This document shows positions 2,973 to 24,798 of a stretch of 26,118 bases of DNA, in pieces. The notes under the pieces were generated by a model, which searched no databases, had not been told where the DNA came from, and saw only the letters and a program-made list of their open reading frames with translations. How positions within the stretch are numbered: position 1 is the stretch's first letter; each line of letters starts with the position of its first letter. The translations under genes and the position numbers were made by a program. The stretch comes from a virus, in IMG/VR virus record IMGVR_UViG_3300035698_005287, positions 1 to 26,118 of that record; one strand, written 5' to 3'.

Positions 2973-4642
2973 GTTTAACAGGGAAAAAACAAGAACAATT
3001 AAATATTGTAGGTGGATCTAATTTTGGCGTTCACACTAAAGTTAATGCTGAAAAAACCTTCAACATGTTTGTCTCTGACAAATGGTTCTTGGATTTCCCT
3101 GGCTTCAAAGTAGTTACTAACATGAGTCGTAACCATGATACTACCGCTGGTGGCAACAATGATGGCAAAGCTAAAGCGTCAAGTGCTGGTGTTGGTCGTG
3201 GAATATTTCTTAGTACTCGTGGTGGATTTGCTATAGGCGTTGTTAATAATGAAGTTTATAGAATCACTCCTAACTTGCAGCCGGTATTTGTAGGCAATCT
3301 TGCAACAAGTTCTGGTGAAGTCTTTATGGCTGAAAACCTGAATGCTCAGATATGTATTGTTGATGGAATTAATGTTTACATTTGTTCTTATATAGGCAGC
3401 GCTACTACATTAACTGTGCAATCTACTGGTCTTCCTGCGTTGATTCCTAACTATGTTGAATATCATAACTCATTCTTTTTGCTTGGTAACAGAAACAAAG
3501 GTGCATCAAGTACATCTTGGTATGTGTTTAAGTTTATGGACGCCACTCATATTGAAAGGGTTTTGGCTGATGCTGGCGGAGAGCACACACTGCAAACTAA
3601 GCCAGATTACCCTTTGGCGATTAAGCGTATTCCCGGACAGTCTGAAAATGTTTTGGTGTTTGGTACAACTGTTTGTGAGATTTTTACACATATTGGCGGA
3701 TTAAAGAACTATAGGCGCGTATCTAGTTCAAGTATTGATTATGGTTGCCAAAACGTATCAACGATTGCATCTAATGATTTATATATTGCATGGCTTGCAA
3801 CAAACGAAGATAGTCCACCAGTTATAATGACTTATGGCCCAGAGGGTCAAAAGGTTATTTCCACGGATGGAATCAGTCATTTATTAAGCAGGGTTAAAGA
3901 GCCTAATAAATCTACTGCATATTTTACAAGGCAGTCTGGTCATTTATTTTATTGCCTTACATTTTATGGTGAAGAAGACTCATTATCATTAGCTTATGAT
4001 TTTAATACTGGAATGTTTTTCAATTTGTCAGATGCTGACTTATCTTATCATCCTATTAGGCAGATGATATTTTTTGATAGTAATGCTGGCTTTGCTAAGT
4101 CTTATTTTCTTTCGTTAAAGAATACTTTGTTATATGAGCTAGACTATGACAATACAACTTATGATGAAAATAGACCTGACCAAACAAGAGATTTATCTTT
4201 AGTTCATGAGATACCACGTTTAAGATTTACTAACAGCATTCGTAGTGGTGATTCTTTAAGGTTTGTAGCAGATTCTTTAGTTATAACGATACAGCAAGGA
4301 ACAGACCCAGAGTTTTCACAGTTAGACTTAGATGATGCGTGTGGCATTTTAATTGTTTCAGAACTTGCAGTTGATATTGTTACAGAGACTGGAGTTAGTA
4401 CGGTTGTAGAAGAGTATGACATTAGTTGTTTGCCGTACAGGCCGAGAGTAGATTGCGCCATTTCTAAAGATGGAGGGGTTACTTATAGTAACTTTGTTCC
4501 TAGATATTTGAATCCTGTTGGAAGAAGACCGAATCAATTGAGATGGGGCCGCTTGGGTCAAGCTAATGATTTAACTTTTCAGTTTAGGTTTTGGGGTCGT
4601 AGCCACTTTGTGGTGAATGACGGTTTTGTGGAGATTGTATAA
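2969..4642 (+). CDS. gp10-like packaged-DNA stabilisation protein (tail hub)
   Basis: Likely homologue of P22 gp10, the hexameric tail hub that joins gp4 to the tail needle and stops DNA leaking from the head. It is 557 residues, against 472 in P22. Family-like features are the N-terminal pattern of an N-rich start leading to FNMFVSDKW and DFPGFK, the VGRGIFLSTRGGFAIGVVNNEVYRI strand pairs, a middle IDYGCQNVSTIASNDLYIAWLA segment, and a C-terminal 'ISKDGG...RRPNQLRWGRLGQA' segment comparable to gp10's 'SATTDG...LWKRVGRIRKN' end. Beta-propeller-like repeats are inferred. It overlaps the previous gene by 4 nt (ATGA) and its TAA overlaps the next ATG by 1 nt, so the three are translationally coupled. 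Confidence 0.72.
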   Translation: MSLTGKKQEQLNIVGGSNFGVHTKVNAEKTFNMFVSDKWFLDFPGFKVVTNMSRNHDTTAGGNNDGKAKASSAGVGRGIFLSTRGGFAIGVVNNEVYRITPNLQPVFVGNLATSSGEVFMAENLNAQICIVDGINVYICSYIGSATTLTVQSTGLPALIPNYVEYHNSFFLLGNRNKGASSTSWYVFKFMDATHIERVLADAGGEHTLQTKPDYPLAIKRIPGQSENVLVFGTTVCEIFTHIGGLKNYRRVSSSSIDYGCQNVSTIASNDLYIAWLATNEDSPPVIMTYGPEGQKVISTDGISHLLSRVKEPNKSTAYFTRQSGHLFYCLTFYGEEDSLSLAYDFNTGMFFNLSDADLSYHPIRQMIFFDSNAGFAKSYFLSLKNTLLYELDYDNTTYDENRPDQTRDLSLVHEIPRLRFTNSIRSGDSLRFVADSLVITIQQGTDPEFSQLDLDDACGILIVSELAVDIVTETGVSTVVEEYDISCLPYRPRVDCAISKDGGVTYSNFVPRYLNPVGRRPNQLRWGRLGQANDLTFQFRFWGRSHFVVNDGFVEIV

Positions 4643-8920: not shown

Positions 8921-11044
8921 ATGGCATTAAGTGAAAAATTTTTAGCGGGTGTTGATTTAAACCAGGTATTTATAAACAAATACACTGGTGAACCGTTAGC
9001 AGGTGGGTCTATAGAATTTCGCAGGGATACTGACAGAGGCGATACTAAGCTTGTTTATCAGCTGGTATCTACTGGCGGCGTATATTCATACGAGCCATTA
9101 CCTAACCCAGTCACGTTAAGTGCTGCAGGAACTATAGTTGACACCAACGGCAATAATGTTGCGTTGTATTACTATCCTTATTTAGGCGACCCTGAAGATA
9201 CTGATCCAAGTGAAGTGTTGGATTTGTATTACATTCAAGTTTTAGACTCTAAAGGAGTTTCACAATTCACTCGTGAAGCATGGCCAACAATTGCAGGTAG
9301 CACAGACCCGTTATCAGACTATGAAGATTATACAAATGAAGTTTCAAACCCTCAATTTGTAGATGTATTCTTTCCTTCAGGTGTTCAGCAAACTATTAAC
9401 TTCACAGGTGCAAATACTACTACTGTAGCTATTGGCCCTAGTTGGGATTTAGTAATTGCACATACCGTAACAGGCACAGCAAAAGTTACACGTAATGCTA
9501 TTGCTGGTACACAGTTGTTCCCAGGCAATACTCCTTATACTTTAACTGTTGAAGGTGGCGCTGGGATTACATCTTTAGATTTACGTCAAAGATTTACTGA
9601 CAACCCTGCTTTATGGTCACCTGTGGTTGCAGAGCAGAAAGGTTATATTGCTTCAAGCATAATGCTTGCTGATGGCAGCTCAGTTGACATGAAGTACATT
9701 ACATCTCTTGGAACTGAAACAGCATTATTGTCAGCTTCTAACGCATCAGGAAGTGAAGCTGAGTTTAACGCTACTGTGCAGCTTGCACCAAGCTCTAATA
9801 GTGGCGCTGCACCTACTGGATATGTTGATTTAATTGTTTCAGTCTCTGCAACTGGCACAACTGTATTAAGTAATATTCAGCTTGTTGGGTTAAACACAAA
9901 TCAACAAGGTGTGACTTACGACCAGATTTCAGTTAATCGTCAACAAGACCAACTGTATCATTACTATAAAGAGCCACTTGCTGCAAAACGCATACCTTCA
10001 TACTTAGTAGGTTGGGACTTTGCACTGAATCCAGCACAGTTTTTAACATCAACAGTTGCAGCTAGTGCAATTGGCGCGAACAAATCAAAGTATGTTTGGG
10101 ACCAAACATTGATGTTTCAATCAGTTGATAGCGCAATTGGCGTAACAAGAAGCAGTGAAGGGAATATTATTTTAACTGCTGCAATTGCCAGCCAAACTGC
10201 ACTTGTTCAATATTTAGACCAGGCAGAAGCACGTGCGTTACTATCTGGTGAATTATCTGTAAATGTTAGAGGCAAAACCACTAGTGTTACAGCTGTAGCT
10301 GCTAATGTTTCTTTATATTGGACAACAGATGGAACACCCCCTGTTGCAACTGCCGGTACAAATAACTCTATAGTTTTAACTCTGGATGCTACAACAGGCA
10401 AACCTGCAACAACAAACGGAACATGGACTGAGGTTGCACGAGGCGAAAGAGGTAACGCTAACTTTACGTTAACTGATTCTTTAGCTGATTATGGATTTAG
10501 TGGTTGGAATGACACTGTAAGCGGTGCCGGTGATACAACTGCAACTTTCTTTGCAATAGTTGTAGGAACATCGGCAATTGATGTGTCTACAACTGTAGAG
10601 CTTGAATCTATATCCTTAGTCCCAGGGAGCCTTCCTTGTAGACCTGGAATACAAAGCAAAGCTGAAGTGATTTTAGATTGTCAGAGATATTACGAGAAAT
10701 CATTTGATATCGGCACAGCTCCAGCTCAAGCTACAGCTTCGGTTGTTGGCGCGTTTTACTGGATGCACAACACAGCCAATGTTGTAAATGTTATGGGTAC
10801 AATATTTTACAAAGCAACTAAAAGAGTGGGCACACCGACAGTTACTTTTTATAGCCCAATTAATACCGATGCGCTATCAGTAAACCTTTCCAACAGTAAT
10901 GCTCCTGACCCAGGCACGGCAGTTATTGTTAGTGGAGATTCAAGCTTTTCAGGTCAATCAAACGTCGCCACTGGTGACGCCGTTAACAATTACAACCAAC
11001 ACGCTGTTCATTGGTCATCCGATGCGCGATTAGGAATAGTTTAA
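8921..11044 (+). CDS. Tail fibre / tailspike protein with virion-anchor N-terminus
   Basis: A 707-residue beta-rich protein. Residues 1-~127 resemble the N-terminal anchor found on many podovirus spikes and fibres: VFINKYTGEPLAGGSIEF, then NPVTLSAAGTIVDTNGN, then LYYIQVLDSKG. The middle is several Thr/Ser/Ala-rich beta modules, including a carbohydrate-binding-like segment (~160-320). The C-terminal ~120 residues begin at CQRYYEKS (C587) and contain VTFYSP, a module shared with the next fibre. No pectate-lyase-like catalytic motif was recognised, so adhesin is favoured over depolymerase. AGGGA precedes the ATG with 7-nt spacing. This is the likely baseplate-proximal fibre, taking the place of the P22 gp9 tailspike. 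Confidence 0.7.
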   Translation: MALSEKFLAGVDLNQVFINKYTGEPLAGGSIEFRRDTDRGDTKLVYQLVSTGGVYSYEPLPNPVTLSAAGTIVDTNGNNVALYYYPYLGDPEDTDPSEVLDLYYIQVLDSKGVSQFTREAWPTIAGSTDPLSDYEDYTNEVSNPQFVDVFFPSGVQQTINFTGANTTTVAIGPSWDLVIAHTVTGTAKVTRNAIAGTQLFPGNTPYTLTVEGGAGITSLDLRQRFTDNPALWSPVVAEQKGYIASSIMLADGSSVDMKYITSLGTETALLSASNASGSEAEFNATVQLAPSSNSGAAPTGYVDLIVSVSATGTTVLSNIQLVGLNTNQQGVTYDQISVNRQQDQLYHYYKEPLAAKRIPSYLVGWDFALNPAQFLTSTVAASAIGANKSKYVWDQTLMFQSVDSAIGVTRSSEGNIILTAAIASQTALVQYLDQAEARALLSGELSVNVRGKTTSVTAVAANVSLYWTTDGTPPVATAGTNNSIVLTLDATTGKPATTNGTWTEVARGERGNANFTLTDSLADYGFSGWNDTVSGAGDTTATFFAIVVGTSAIDVSTTVELESISLVPGSLPCRPGIQSKAEVILDCQRYYEKSFDIGTAPAQATASVVGAFYWMHNTANVVNVMGTIFYKATKRVGTPTVTFYSPINTDALSVNLSNSNAPDPGTAVIVSGDSSFSGQSNVATGDAVNNYNQHAVHWSSDARLGIV

Positions 11045-17768: not shown

Positions 17769-17849
17769 GGTTTGCGTTAAAGGGCTCCAGGCCCCGTGAT
17801 TGCTAGGTTCTTATCTTTTTGAGGGTGGTTTTTAGGTTTGCGTTAAAGG
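17769..17849. repeat. 15-bp direct repeat in untranslated region
   Basis: GGTTTGCGTTAAAGG occurs at 17769-17783 and 17835-17849, start-to-start 66 bp, in the gap between the 51-residue gene and the 60-residue gene (17706-17880). A short GC stem (GGGC at 17782-17785 with GCCC at 17791-17794) adjoins the first copy. Paired operator sites for a repressor are the simplest reading. Confidence 0.6.
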
Positions 17850-17858
17850 ACTTCTTAG

Positions 17859-17888
17859 CTATCGGCAACGCTTTAATTTTTCAGTCAT
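17859..17888 (-). pseudogene. Nine-codon remnant after an ATGACTGA joint
   Basis: The last joint of the cassette string reads ATGACTGA, the same start/stop overlap as at the other joints, but the ATG opens only M-T-E-K-L-K-R-C-R before TAG. It may be the start of a deleted gene, or a chance ATG. It matters mainly as a fifth exact copy of the joint. Confidence 0.35.
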
Positions 17889-18036
17889 CATCTCTCTTTA
17901 CACCCTTAACCTTTTCATCGAGCTGCCAGAGAACTTTTTCTACAAAATCTCTAATCTCTGGGGAAGCATCTATGAAATCAGCGTTAGCATTGAGTAGCCA
18001 CTTAAACCATTCAGGCCAGCTTGATTCTTCAGTCAT
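17881..18036 (-). CDS. 51-residue acidic/Trp-rich protein, unknown
   Basis: MTEESSWPEWFKWLLNANAD, then FIDASPEIRDFVEKVLWQLDEKVKGVKRDDD. The start is the ATG of an ATGACTGA overlap with the preceding gene's stop. AAGGA lies 10 nt upstream. The protein appears to be two amphipathic helices with four Trp and a charged tail. No family is recognised. It is the last intact gene of a coupled string of tiny genes. Confidence 0.5.
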   Translation of the reverse strand: MTEESSWPEWFKWLLNANADFIDASPEIRDFVEKVLWQLDEKVKGVKRDDD

Positions 18037-18223
18037 TCTTCAGCATCCTTAAAGTTCTATTTGTTTCAATCTTACGAATAAAAGCTTCATCTACAAGTGT
18101 TTCTAAAGCTATAAGTTCACCTATTGAATACTTGCTCAGCTCTCTTGTATGGCTCACGTCATCAGCGTTAGACCAGATTAATGACTGCCATCTATCGTCA
18201 CGGTCAAGGTCTTCTTTAGTCAT
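18029..18223 (-). CDS. 64-residue helical protein, unknown
   Basis: Begins MTKEDLDRDDRWQSLIWSNA and ends in N-D-stop. It contains a predicted long helix (YSIGELIALETLVDEAFIRK). GGAGAAAAG directly precedes the ATG. The start overlaps the upstream stop by 4 nt (ATGA), and the stop lies in the ATGACTGA shared with the downstream gene. No recognisable family. Confidence 0.5.
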   Translation of the reverse strand: MTKEDLDRDDRWQSLIWSNADDVSHTRELSKYSIGELIALETLVDEAFIRKIETNRTLRMLKND

Positions 18224-18387
18224 CTTTTCTCCAAAGCCTCTTTGATATTGTATATGTGGTTGTTATATGACTCTAGTATCCAGCGGTTATCTACTATGAA
18301 AGCATAAAACTTAGACATCCAAAAACAAAACGCAAAAGCTAAACCTACTAACGCGCTCGCTATTACAAAAAGAAAATATTCAGTCAT
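18220..18387 (-). CDS. 55-residue single-span membrane protein
   Basis: MTEYFLFVIASALVGLAFAF, then CFWMSKFYAFIVDNRW and a charged helical tail ending in EALEKR. There is one N-terminal membrane span (~4-24). The start is the ATG of ATGACTGA (18380-18387), with AAGGG 8 nt upstream. The stop overlaps the next gene by ATGA. It could act on the host envelope, but nothing specific is visible. Confidence 0.5.
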   Translation of the reverse strand: MTEYFLFVIASALVGLAFAFCFWMSKFYAFIVDNRWILESYNNHIYNIKEALEKR

Positions 18388-18535
18388 CTTCATCACCCTT
18401 CAGTATATCTCTAGCCTCCATCAAGCCCATCATTATCCCTTCCATTACAGAGTTATGGAATGCTTCCGGGTTTTTAATTCTCATCTTTAAAAGCTCATCA
18501 ATTCTGTTTTGTATTTCTTTTAATTCTTCAGTCAT
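18380..18535 (-). CDS. 51-residue coiled-coil protein, unknown
   Basis: MTEELKEIQNRIDELLKMRI, then KNPEAFHNSVMEGIMMGLMEARDILKGDEDD. The first half has the heptad-like Leu/Ile spacing of a short coiled coil. The frame stays open upstream to an ATG at 18664, but that longer version would overlap the Lar-like gene by about 137 nt. The ATG at 18535 forms the same ATGACTGA overlap as its neighbours, so it is preferred. No known family. Confidence 0.5.
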   Translation of the reverse strand: MTEELKEIQNRIDELLKMRIKNPEAFHNSVMEGIMMGLMEARDILKGDEDD

Positions 18536-18779
18536 TCTTACTATTCCAATCCTTAACTGCATCAGCTCTAAGCTGGAACCTATCAGACTTGCTGTAGCAG
18601 CGTTCACACCTGACCCTATACTTGCCAAACATATTAACAATGCTAGGATAGCGCCCTCTGCCATAGCATGGGCACTTTTTCATGGTTTCTTGTGCATTGC
18701 TCTTAGGCTCTGCACACGTTTTAGGCTTTTCTTGTGGATAGCTTGTGCGTGCGCATAAGTCAGCTATTGCATCAGTCAT
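18528..18779 (-). CDS. Lar-like zinc-ribbon protein (possible restriction alleviation)
   Basis: An 83-residue protein. The C-terminal half fits the Lar family pattern: KKCPCYG (C36, C38), then YRVRCERC (C58, C61), then ADAVKDWN (D77-N79). Lar proteins of phage and prophage are known for relieving type I restriction. The first Cys pair here is C-x-C, not the usual C-x-x-C, so metal binding may be altered. The N-terminal ~30 residues (two more Cys) are extra. AAAGGA precedes the start, and both ends lie in ATGACTGA overlaps. Confidence 0.6.
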   Translation of the reverse strand: MTDAIADLCARTSYPQEKPKTCAEPKSNAQETMKKCPCYGRGRYPSIVNMFGKYRVRCERCYSKSDRFQLRADAVKDWNSKND

Positions 18780-19632
18780 TTAAAGCTTCCTTTATTTCTT
18801 CGCGCCACTCTCTTACTTTGCGGGGCATAAAGATGCCGTATAACACTATATCCCACTGGTTTGAAAAATAATTTGATAGATTAAATGTGGCCTTTTCTTT
18901 TTCAAGGTGTAAGAAAGCTTCTTTTGGGCATAAATTGTTATCTGCAGCCCAAGAGAGAGCATTTCTCGTGGTTAAAAGTTTTTCTTTATCTTCGCTAGTC
19001 AAACATCTAAGCACCGTGGGAGAACTTCTCTCTCTGTTCCCAGGCATTTGGTTTTTAGGCATCCTAAGTTTTCTCAAGGCTTTTGCCTCTATCTGCATAA
19101 TTCTGCTAATTGAGATTTCAAGCTCTTTGCCAAGATCTTTAAACGTTAATAATGGCCCATCAAAACCAAAACGTCCTTTAATAACTCTTTTCTCCCTAGG
19201 GCTTAGGCATTCTAACCCCTTAGATATAATCTTTTTTTCTTCTTCATCCTCAATCGCCAATATTGGATCACTACCGCCAATCATAAGAGGACACAAAGAC
19301 TCCATATCTTCTCGTGACAAAGCTCTTTCCGCCTTATTAGTAAGAAGAGGATTGCTCATCTGCTGCTCGTTAAACATCTCTTCAGGCTTAACACCCAAAG
19401 AAGCTGCTATCTTTTCAACAGCTGGCGCCCAAAGATTAGAACCACCTTCATTAGCCTTCCTAGAAAAAGGCGACGCAGTCATATTTAAAAAATCACCCAC
19501 CCGGGACTGACTTATACCGGCATCCCGAGCAAGCTGCGCAGCATTAATGATGCCACGCTCTTTCATTAAAGAAACTATCTTATTATTCTGAATCTTTACC
19601 TTTAAAAGGTAATCTTTGTTACTTGACAGCAT
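18772..19632 (-). CDS. XRE helix-turn-helix / sigma-70 region 4 fusion regulator
   Basis: A 286-residue DNA-binding protein. Residues ~13-88 form a Cro/CI-type HTH: IVSLMKERGI, AAQLARDAGISQSRVGDFLN, and EKIAASLGVKPEEMF. Residues ~127-190 match sigma-70 region 4: LSPREKRVIKGRFGFDG, then LTFKDLGKELEISISRIMQIEAKALRKLR, the -35-recognition HTH. No sigma region 2 is present, so it cannot act as a full sigma factor. The C-terminal ~95 residues are unassigned (WAADNNLCPKEAFLHLEKEK, EWREEIKEAL). The ATG at 19632 overlaps the previous stop (TGATG); a TTG at 19635 is an alternative. It may steer host RNA polymerase or compete with the host sigma at -35 sites near its own operator. Domain calls are confident; role is inferred. 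Confidence 0.8.
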   Translation of the reverse strand: MLSSNKDYLLKVKIQNNKIVSLMKERGIINAAQLARDAGISQSRVGDFLNMTASPFSRKANEGGSNLWAPAVEKIAASLGVKPEEMFNEQQMSNPLLTNKAERALSREDMESLCPLMIGGSDPILAIEDEEEKKIISKGLECLSPREKRVIKGRFGFDGPLLTFKDLGKELEISISRIMQIEAKALRKLRMPKNQMPGNRERSSPTVLRCLTSEDKEKLLTTRNALSWAADNNLCPKEAFLHLEKEKATFNLSNYFSNQWDIVLYGIFMPRKVREWREEIKEALND

Positions 19633-19874
19633 CAACCATCGGCTCCCACATCATCTTGCTCAGCTTCTTTAGCTTTGCGTAATATACCTGCACTATTCTT
19701 CCAAACGTATTCTAACTGACAGAGTAAATCTTTAAGCTCTGGCCTTGCAAGCTGAACTACAACATTTTCAGCTGACCCCATGCTTTCCACTTCAAGAAAT
19801 ACACCTTGAGGTGATGCACTTACATTGCACTCGCCATCTGTAAAACTGCAGTTAATTGTAAAAGGTGTATTCAT
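19632..19874 (-). CDS. 80-residue protein, unknown
   Basis: A beta-rich N-terminal half (INCSFTDGECNVSASPQGVF, LEVESMG, NVVVQLAR) and a helical, charged C-terminus (LLCQLEYVWKNSAGILRKAK). It overlaps the upstream gene by ATGA and the downstream regulator by TGATG, so it is co-translated with the regulator. No recognised family. Confidence 0.5.
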   Translation of the reverse strand: MNTPFTINCSFTDGECNVSASPQGVFLEVESMGSAENVVVQLARPELKDLLCQLEYVWKNSAGILRKAKEAEQDDVGADG

Positions 19875-20484: not shown

Positions 20485-20931
20485 TTAAAATGGCACCGCG
20501 TCATTTGGTGTGACTTCGCCCGTCTCTTTGTTGATTGTCTCAACAGGCTTAGGCTCAGCAACAAGCCACATGCTCACAACTGACTTAGGCTTGTACTTTG
20601 GGTCAGAAGGCATATCAGTACTAATAATACAATTGCCTTTATGGCCTTCCAATAACTTTTCATTCACTTGCCCCCGCTCATTATAAAGTTCCGGCTTGCC
20701 AATCGCATGACAAATATCATGCAGCTTATATGCAGCCTTTGCAGTAATGTACTCAGTAGCTAAAGTCTTTTGACCCTTGTCGTTAGATAAAGCCAAACCC
20801 AGCACCAACATATTATTATTATTGTTTGAAACTTTTTGTGATACTTCAACTATCTTGAACCAGCCTTCACCTTCATCAATAACATTGTAAGCACTCAACT
20901 TATCTTCGGGCACGTAATCAAAACCAAACAT
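20485..20931 (-). CDS. Probable single-stranded-DNA-binding protein (DUF669-like)
   Basis: A 148-residue protein. Signs of an ssDNA-binding partner: a beta-rich core (GEGWFKIVEVSQK...MLVLGLALSNDKG), a helix KAAYKLHDICHAIGKPELY, a CIISTDM strand, and an acidic disordered tail ending NDAVPF, very like the DDDIPF tip by which bacterial SSB recruits partners. DUF669-type phage proteins share the 'helix + CxAIGKP' layout and lie beside recombination ATPases. It lies 10 nt downstream of the Sak4-like gene in the same transcript. Expected role: coat ssDNA and recruit the annealing or replication proteins. Confidence 0.65.
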   Translation of the reverse strand: MFGFDYVPEDKLSAYNVIDEGEGWFKIVEVSQKVSNNNNNMLVLGLALSNDKGQKTLATEYITAKAAYKLHDICHAIGKPELYNERGQVNEKLLEGHKGNCIISTDMPSDPKYKPKSVVSMWLVAEPKPVETINKETGEVTPNDAVPF

Positions 20932-20941
20932 AAACTATCTC

Positions 20942-21784
20942 CTATTTTTTTAAACTATCTATACACGCTTGTATTATTCTTGAAGGCATCTGCTCGAACT
21001 CAGTTACCTCTGCTTTTTTAAACCACTTGTCAACCGTAAAGGGTGGAACCTCTTTATCATTTATAAGTTTAAAAATCTCGTCAATCTGCTCAACCGTTGC
21101 AAAGGGTTCAACCTTTGCTTCTTTCTCTAAAACATCAGCGCCATATTTTTCAGCAATAGCCTTGTAGGAAAATTCAAACTCTTCAAACTCATCAAACGTA
21201 GCAATGCGAGTCTTTCTTACAACACCCGTTCTCACTGTTCCCATCTTTTGAATCTCAATCACTAAATCAAATAAATAATCTAGCTTTTTATAACAATCAA
21301 AAGTACTTCCAATAACATTCATGTTATTGCCATATTCATTTTTAGCGTGGGATGAAACAATCACATTCATATCAAGCTTTAACAGCATGGCAAGCAATCG
21401 TTTCATTGCAGCATTAGCAACACCGTAATGACGGCCATATGCTGTAGGGTCTTTCTCACTTGGATCATGAGCAGCCTTATCAACCAACTCGCTATATACA
21501 GTAGTCAGCGGGTCAATCACTAAAGTCTTATAAGGGTGAGGCTCAGTAGCCAGCGAATATACCTCTTTCATTATCTCGTCAAAGTCTGAAGACTGAAATA
21601 TTGCTCCGCCACTCTTTTTAAGCAAATCTAAATATTGGGAGTTTTCTATCCCCTTTTCTGTGTCAATCACATAAGGTGCAGGAAATGATAACGCAGCGTA
21701 GCTCTTGCCAGCTCCAGCCACTCCATACAACAACATCTTTAAACGCTTCTCAATCGCTTCAGGTTGAACACCTCTTAATCCCAT
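20942..21784 (-). CDS. Sak4-type RecA-like recombination ATPase
   Basis: A 280-residue AAA_24/Sak4-family protein, a minimal RecA core that promotes single-strand annealing with SSB. From the preferred start: Walker A GVAGAGKS at 21-28, YVIDTEKG (acidic after a strand, as in the family), Walker B LVIDPL near 88-93, and VIVSSHAKNE near 140. The ATG at 21784 is chosen because GGGGAG lies 4 nt upstream. An ATG at 21823 would add 13 polar residues but has no ribosome site. The SSB-like gene follows directly, the known Sak4-SSB pairing. It diverges from the ribbon-helix-helix gene. Confidence 0.78.
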   Translation of the reverse strand: MGLRGVQPEAIEKRLKMLLYGVAGAGKSYAALSFPAPYVIDTEKGIENSQYLDLLKKSGGAIFQSSDFDEIMKEVYSLATEPHPYKTLVIDPLTTVYSELVDKAAHDPSEKDPTAYGRHYGVANAAMKRLLAMLLKLDMNVIVSSHAKNEYGNNMNVIGSTFDCYKKLDYLFDLVIEIQKMGTVRTGVVRKTRIATFDEFEEFEFSYKAIAEKYGADVLEKEAKVEPFATVEQIDEIFKLINDKEVPPFTVDKWFKKAEVTEFEQMPSRIIQACIDSLKK

Positions 21785-21826
21785 TGCACTCCCCTTGTCT
21801 TTATCACTCTCATGGTTTAACATGTC

Positions 21827-23436: not shown

Positions 23437-24798
23437 ATGGAAAATATATTACCATTCAAAAAACCCCAGTCAACTAATTTAGTTGGCGAGTATAATTTAG
23501 ATAAAGAACAAATAGCGACGATGGAACATCTATGTGAGCAGATGGTAATTCAGTCATTGCTTGGTTTGCCTGATTCACTTGATGGCACATCTATTGGCCC
23601 GGTGTGTTTTAACAATCCACATTTCCGTCGCATCTATTGCATGATTGCCGAACTTCGAAAGAAGGGCGTCCCGATTGAAAAGAAAATAATCCATTCGAGT
23701 TACATTGATGATTTCCAGGATGCTGAGTTCTTGGAGTTCTTCAATACCCTGTGGCTTGATAGAGACCAAAGATTAAGTCCAAGCTTGGATTATCATATCC
23801 AGATATTGGATGAAGCGTTGATGCGTCATGAGTTTGATGTGGTGAAGGCTTCATCAGTCCCTAACCAGCCAATTGAGAAACAGGTTGAACATATGATTGA
23901 GCGTTCGACTGAAATCATGACTAAGCATGCCAAGGTTGATGCGGCATCTTTTGCGGGTGACTGGGATACAGTGCTTGAGGTTGCCAGGGATGCGGAGAAC
24001 GGGATTAAGCCTAATTCGTTGTATACCGGTTACAGCTCCTTAGACGCGATTCTAGGCGAGGGGATTTTAGATGACTACTTGTGGATAGTGGGGGCTGATA
24101 GTGGCGCAGGGAAGACTACGTTCGCTTTAAACGTGATTAAGAACCTGGCATTGAATAACAGGGTGAGTACTTTGTTTTTATCGTTTGAGATGGGTAGAGA
24201 GCGTTTGATGCGATGGTTTATGGGGGCATGCACTGGTATTCCGTTGAGATCGTTTGTTGAGGGTGACATAACTGAAGAGGGTTACAGGCAGATTGCAGAC
24301 CTTCAATGCAACAAATTAAATTTTAATGCTTTGGATATTGTTCCAGCTGATCCAGAATTGAGCAATGTGGTGAAGGTTATCAAGTTGCATGTTAAGCGTA
24401 ATCCCAATTGTAAATTTATTGTGCTTGACCATCTTCACCTAATGAGCTGGAACAAATCCATTCAAGCTACTGACGTAGTGAGTGCCATTACTAAGACTTT
24501 AAAGCATTTAGCTATTGAGCTTGGAGTTCCTATCATGTTGTTAGCCCAGCTTAAGAAGCCAGAGGCCCCAATTCCTGGGAAGCCACGGCGTGAGCCAGTG
24601 GCGAGCGACCTGAAGGGTTCAGGTAGTATTATTACCGATGCAGATTTAATCACGATATTACAAATTGATAACACTATATCCAGATACGGTAATAACCGTT
24701 TATTAAATGCTTTTGTTTTGAAAAATAGAGGTGGTAGAGGTGATGGTAGCCACTCCACCCTAACTCACCTTGCCGAAAGTGGAGTTATCTATGAGTGA
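23437..24798 (+). CDS. dnaB: DnaB-type replicative helicase
   Basis: A 453-residue hexameric helicase expected to unwind phage DNA at the fork. The N-terminal ~150 residues fit the DnaB N-domain (MVIQSLLGLPDSLDG, FNNPHFRRIYCMIAELRKKG, HIQILDEALMRHEF). A linker precedes the RecA-like C-domain: Walker A GADSGAGKT at 219-227 (K226), FLSFEMGRERLMRWFMG (family DnaB motif), Walker B FIVLDHLHLM with D331, then LLAQLKKPE and SDLKGSGSIITDADLI. AAAGGA precedes the ATG, adjoining the inverted repeat. The stop overlaps the next gene's start by 8 nt (ATGAGTGA). Confidence 0.88.
   Translation: MENILPFKKPQSTNLVGEYNLDKEQIATMEHLCEQMVIQSLLGLPDSLDGTSIGPVCFNNPHFRRIYCMIAELRKKGVPIEKKIIHSSYIDDFQDAEFLEFFNTLWLDRDQRLSPSLDYHIQILDEALMRHEFDVVKASSVPNQPIEKQVEHMIERSTEIMTKHAKVDAASFAGDWDTVLEVARDAENGIKPNSLYTGYSSLDAILGEGILDDYLWIVGADSGAGKTTFALNVIKNLALNNRVSTLFLSFEMGRERLMRWFMGACTGIPLRSFVEGDITEEGYRQIADLQCNKLNFNALDIVPADPELSNVVKVIKLHVKRNPNCKFIVLDHLHLMSWNKSIQATDVVSAITKTLKHLAIELGVPIMLLAQLKKPEAPIPGKPRREPVASDLKGSGSIITDADLITILQIDNTISRYGNNRLLNAFVLKNRGGRGDGSHSTLTHLAESGVIYE

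Follow-up and report, generated by a model that had tools for sequence, protein, structure and literature searches.

A repeated start/stop joint in a string of small phage genes, and one gene replacement at such a joint in close relatives

The early operon and its string of small genes

The window, that is, the whole stretch of DNA analysed here, is a 26,118-base fragment (positions 1 to 26,118 of IMG/VR virus record IMGVR_UViG_3300035698_005287). Profile matches identify genes for a P22-like coat protein and a gp10-like head-closure protein. Replication genes, among them one for a DnaB-like helicase, are on the + strand. The - strand carries an early operon. This runs from a Sak4-like gene, through several small genes and an HTH/sigma-region-4 gene, to a string of five small genes that ends at 17881. 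The Sak4-like gene (20942-21823, - strand) encodes, by profile match, a single-strand annealing protein (AAA_24). The product matches the AAA_24 and Sak4 profiles (PF13479, 88 bits; phrog_124, 91 bits, E=1.7e-25) and is a candidate recombinase for short-homology exchange. The adjoining gene (20485-20931, - strand) encodes a 148-aa protein with the acidic tail NDAVPF. No family match at a convincing E-value was found for this protein, which is SSB-like by position and tail only. It may be the cognate SSB of the Sak4-like protein. Its position is conserved in loci L010 and L011, with about 28% identity.

The gene that heads the string (18772-19635, - strand) combines a Cro/C1-type HTH with sigma-70 region 4. 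Its reading frame opens from TTG, and an ATG start lies at 19632. The protein has no match to sigma region 2. A distant relative, in locus L008, has 31% identity and a long C-terminal extension. Five small genes follow on the - strand. The first (18528-18779) encodes an 83-aa, weakly Lar-like protein. Its score against the Lar restriction alleviation family (PF14354) is 18.4 bits, under the Pfam cut-off of 28.6, so it was not assigned to that family. Next are a 51-aa gene with a charged, helical product starting MTEELKEIQ (18380-18535), a 55-aa gene with a membrane-like product, hydrophobic in its N-terminal half (18220-18387), a 64-aa gene (18029-18223), and a second 51-aa gene, starting MTEESSW (17881-18036). 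These four match no family. Note that the gene opening at 18535 has 51 codons; the mechanical list of open reading frames holds a 94-codon version, from an upstream ATG. All of the small genes have phage-like codon use and score as coding in the frames given here. Their products are unlike in character (Cys-rich, hydrophobic, or charged). The linked proteins had been described as looking unrelated and, indeed, no similarity was detectable among the five. All ten pairs gave z below 1, so the neighbours lack the residual similarity expected in a tandem array of paralogues.

An 18-base direct repeat (94%), reading GGTTTGCGTTAAAGG(G/A)CT, is found directly downstream of the string, at 17769-17786 and 17835-17852. 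A search of Rfam found no RNA element.

Six joints, J1 to J6, link these genes, and five of the six are exact copies of ATGACTGA. J1 (18772-18779) joins the stop of the HTH/sigma-region-4 gene to the start of the 83-aa gene. J2 (18528-18535; longer form ATGACTGAAGAATTAAAA) joins the 83-aa gene to the first 51-aa gene, and J3 (18380-18387) joins the latter to the 55-aa gene. J5 (18029-18036; longer form ATGACTGAAGAAT) lies between the 64-aa gene and the last 51-aa gene. J6 (17881-17888) contains the stop of that gene and the start of a 9-codon open reading frame. In each of these cases, stop and start overlap by 8 nt. The remaining joint, J4 (18216-18223), between the 55-aa and 64-aa genes, is the variant ATGACTAA. 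The preliminary description had placed all six joints correctly. For J4, the position holds and the 8-nt form does not, since this overlap is of 4 nt (ATGA). All six are on the - strand, and each has the overlapping stop and start seen in pairs coupled by termination-reinitiation. Two further copies of ATGACTGA, at 3873-3880 and 23550-23557, are antisense within large genes.

One frame of the 8-mer is ATG-ACT, and both remaining frames contain TGA. The preliminary description also pointed to shared protein ends, with upstream genes finishing (N/D)-D-stop and downstream genes beginning M-T-(E/D). Both patterns are present, but they are largely forced by the 8-mer read in two frames, which gives GAC TGA and ATG ACT GA. 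Hence, they are not independent evidence.

Repetition of the joint and extent of sharing

The window contains seven copies of ATGACTGA, five of them the exact 8-nt overlaps described above, where 0.83 are expected. None of 100 dinucleotide shuffles of the window reached seven. Hence, the comparison with shuffled sequence, proposed in the preliminary description, comes out in favour of repetition. ATGACT starts all five of the genes beginning in the string and none of the 29 other genes in the window (Fisher p=3.6e-6). Elsewhere, ATGACTGA forms 25 of 1,484 coupled joints (1.7%), in a comparison set enriched by the pattern scan. Four detected joints carrying an identical 8-mer fall within 2 kb in the window, and nowhere else in the 2.2 Mb of phage DNA fetched.

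Sharing beyond the 8-mer is uneven. J1, J3, and J4 have only 6-8 bases in common. Conversely, J2 and J5 have 17 consecutive bases in common, and this match, already noted between 18036 and 18535, is exact. J2 and J6 are equal at 29 of 39 bases, with the similarity extending upstream of the start. Across the window joints, the 5' bases show no shared sequence (p=0.76). Once the 8-mer is masked, the six together resemble one another no more closely than other gene starts do (p=0.17). In the window, the start-context test described below for another phage gave p=0.11. Individual pairs do stand out. Again with the 8-mer masked, J2-J6, and the pairs formed by J2 with joints of two relatives (J2-G001b and J2-G020), scored above all 406 control pairs. 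The J2 and G020 joints have 21 perfect bases in common (18518-18538; E=8e-4), and their genes and genome positions differ. A short sequence at the borders of otherwise unrelated genes is therefore found at the five window joints, in the J2-G020 match, and in the repeat within G001. The few bases common to J1, J3, and J4, and the result for the masked set, speak against a uniform cassette system.

Gene replacement in relatives of the window

The closest relative of the window, judged by the gp10-like protein (69% identity), is G001, an 18,102-base contig. G020 is a second record, from the same sample, found by pattern scan. G001 opens with two joints, at 87 and 250. These are 163 bp apart and equal at 20 of 21 bases. 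A gene for a 56-aa Lar-like protein (PF14354, 34.3 bits, above the Pfam cut-off) begins at the first. Behind this gene, the second joint starts an unrelated 42-codon gene. The overlap is 4 nt at the first copy and 8 nt at the second. Hence, conservation of the joint does not follow the upstream reading frame.

Over 103 bases, which cover the upstream gene up to and through the joint ATGACTGAAGARTTAAA, G001 and G020 have 98% identity. After this, G001 has the Lar-like gene and the 42-codon gene, whereas G020 has an unrelated 67-aa gene. Past the exchanged genes, and ahead of the next shared gene, the alignment resumes at 84%. In the terminase and capsid genes, identity is only 64-65%. We conclude that genes were replaced here, and that one edge of the replacement is at the joint. 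The locus is on the + strand, before the terminase gene, in a different genome place from the window string. Among the sequences compared, only this pair changes gene content exactly at the shared sequence. A scan with the upstream gene returned G001 and G020 alone, with no third allele, so the exchange comes from one genome pair, in one metagenome, with both loci near contig ends. No Sak4 match was found in either fragment.

Locus L115 has a 75-base direct repeat (434-508 and 1042-1116; 79%), before two genes and ending in TTACAAGGAAAGT. It may be a duplicated promoter and ribosome-binding region, and its first copy adjoins the right edge of the exchanged genes. At 407-425, the same locus has a third, degraded, joint-like sequence, GTGAATAAAGAATTAAA, which opens a 12-codon open reading frame, MNKELNRSMSTE, closed by a stop. 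This parallels the 9-codon frame that opens at J6 in the window (17859-17888, - strand), which reads MTEKLKRCR before its stop. The latter had been taken for the remnant of a lost cassette, and that idea gains some support. Its start resembles MTEELKPC, the start of the Lar-like protein in G001, and the G001 string likewise ends in a short joint-like remnant.

The preliminary description proposed cassette exchange, detectable as a change in gene content between conserved joints. Such a change was found once, in the relatives and at a different locus. Exchange was not seen in the window itself, because no fetched record carries its small genes. Viral contigs and annotated phages, searched with the small genes and the HTH/sigma gene, yielded nothing close. 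None of about 80 Sak4 relatives has any gene of the string, and a DnaB query found no match. Across all fetched loci, alignment ends show a slight excess at coupled joints (6.1% versus 3.4%), to which groups of related, non-independent contigs contribute.

G008 (locus L116), a more distant phage related to the window via the coat gene, has the same habit with different joints. Here, GGAGAACNANAATG is found at eight successive small-gene starts, four of them as GGAGAACAACAATGA. At two of these four, the upstream gene ends in one frame and, at the other two, it ends in the other. Hence, it is DNA or RNA that is kept, not a protein end. Starts of neighbouring genes are more alike than those of distant ones (permutation p<0.0005). 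The eight-gene string includes one clear paralogous pair (z=10.8), so duplication contributes in G008. With the string at 9643-10874 (- strand) and those on its + strand, this phage has three small-gene strings, and each repeats a ribosome-binding/start sequence of its own (GGAGAACNANAATG, GGAGAAGAANAATGAGT, and GGAGAAAGCAAATGACA). Separately, similar joints in locus L059 (4390-5900, + strand), from a Sak4-carrying phage, were considered and rejected as support. The genes there are tandem, small, serine/arginine-rich paralogues.

Possible origin of the joints and comparison with known systems

We consider it marginally probable that these small accessory genes form an early operon with joints that are copies of one start/stop element, and that genes can be exchanged while translation stays coupled. 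The element would be ATGACTGA, in a fuller form about ATGACTGAAGAATTAAA. A ribosome would stop at TGA within the joint and restart at the ATG a few bases upstream, which would couple each gene to its predecessor. An upstream gene in either of the other frames would end no more than 8 bases from the next start, a spacing that should favour termination-reinitiation (PMC6728339). With a start codon in one frame and a stop in each of the others, the 8-mer could take a crossover at any point and still join two genes, whichever they are, without loss of either reading frame or of coupling. The exception would be an upstream gene arriving in the frame of the start codon itself, which would fuse. In simulated crossovers, between all ten pairs of exact joints, both open reading frames were kept. 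Annealing at short common joints, perhaps aided by the Sak4-like protein of the phage, would then allow genes to be gained, lost, or swapped. Eight bases is less than the homology usually thought efficient for annealing recombination, and this counts against exchange at the 8-mer. We infer that the window joints share common descent, that exchange has happened in the window, that Sak4 acts at the joints, and that translation is coupled across them. The joint probably keeps translation linked during gene exchange.

The possible alternatives start with convergence. If tight coupling and efficient initiation alone select ATGACTGA, the joints have no common origin and exchange is incidental. This is a serious rival, because no more than 6-8 bases are common to J1, J3, and J4. 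The 8-mer stops both other frames, places a small residue (Thr) second, and gives an A-rich start. Overlaps of 8 nt are the third commonest class of coupled joints (104 of 949), and sharing in the window is mostly confined to the functional 8-mer. Furthermore, MTEELK starts are widespread in unrelated phages, mostly off joints (111 of 120 are free-standing). However, ATGAATGA, ATGAGTGA, and ATGAATAA would serve equally and are about as frequent elsewhere, yet all five joints have ACT. ACTGA also occurs in 4-nt joints that do not need it (G001a and G020). Identical codons for the same MTEELK peptide are expected in only 1.2% of pairs, and the local joint forms of G008 contradict a single genome-wide optimum. 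On this evidence, we regard convergence as unlikely, though far from negligible.

Duplication and divergence is an improbable source. Here, a gene plus its joint would have been duplicated in tandem, repeatedly, with the bodies diverging and the joints held by constraint. The paralogous pair of G008, and the obvious paralogues of L059 with their similar joints, illustrate such a process. The similarity of J2 and J6, part of which is upstream of the start, also fits. Against this, the five window proteins retain no similarity to one another and differ in character, and the G001/G020 difference is replacement rather than divergence. Finally, a chance origin of the repeated joints is unlikely, and we give almost no credence to the idea that a short, common start context clustered by chance since, even though ATGACT is an ordinary start and eight bases are short, no shuffle reached seven copies, the Fisher test gave a very low p value, and the same joint was found again at the exchange boundary of G001 and G020.

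Exchange at copied joints could also have a wider form, which we put forward tentatively and hold to be doubtful. The joint would be a frame-independent docking element in phage accessory operons. It would start one gene, stop both other frames, and be copied to every joint of a string, with each string having its own version. Small genes would be inserted or removed by short-homology annealing, with translation undisturbed.

The nearest architectural parallel is the lambda nin region, a chain of small accessory genes, many with ATGA overlaps. Kroger and Hobom, in 1982, reportedly described lambda ninR as a chain of interlinked genes. The region differs in that its longest in-register sharing is 10 bases (ninC/ninD) and its overlaps are mostly 4 nt. 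ATGACTGA is absent from it. In Cluster I mycobacteriophages, the Island3/Brujita insertion is a small gene gained or lost between repeats of about 50 bp at gene ends (PMC3029335). Those repeats are the 3' ends of genes, whereas repeats in the window comprise gene starts and the upstream stop. Termination-reinitiation coupling (PMC6728339) likewise involves overlapping stop and start codons, with Shine-Dalgarno-like bases within the upstream gene. That work concerns ATGA and TGATG overlaps, and neither exchange nor the repetition of an identical joint. Single-strand annealing by Sak4 of phage HK620 is stimulated by the SSB of that phage (PMC5928155). The window also encodes a Sak4-like protein with a small, acidic-tailed neighbour, but this pair is known from sequence, and the likeness of the neighbour to SSB is confined to its place and tail.

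Phage mosaics break at gene borders. The debate is whether recombination is targeted to short border sequences, or joining is random and followed by selection. As cited in PMC3233612 and PMC3029335, lambdoid boundary sequences were proposed as recombination targets (Susskind and Botstein 1978; Clark et al. 2001, for HK620). Both citing papers doubt the generality of the idea. In the form presented there, the conserved sequences resemble the window joints in being short, at gene borders, and common to unrelated neighbours, and homologous recombination at them was proposed to generate mosaics. By comparison, the border in the window is an overlapping start/stop pair, found five times in one operon, that blocks both other frames. 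A joint that is both coupling element and shared border would explain where breaks fall, and how gene order changes without loss of expression. One replacement with the joint retained, and two related phages with repeated joints of different sequence, make the idea open to genome comparison and simple reporters. What sets this apart from the known boundary idea is a border formed by the codon pair itself, its repetition along one operon, and a swap caught with the joint in place.
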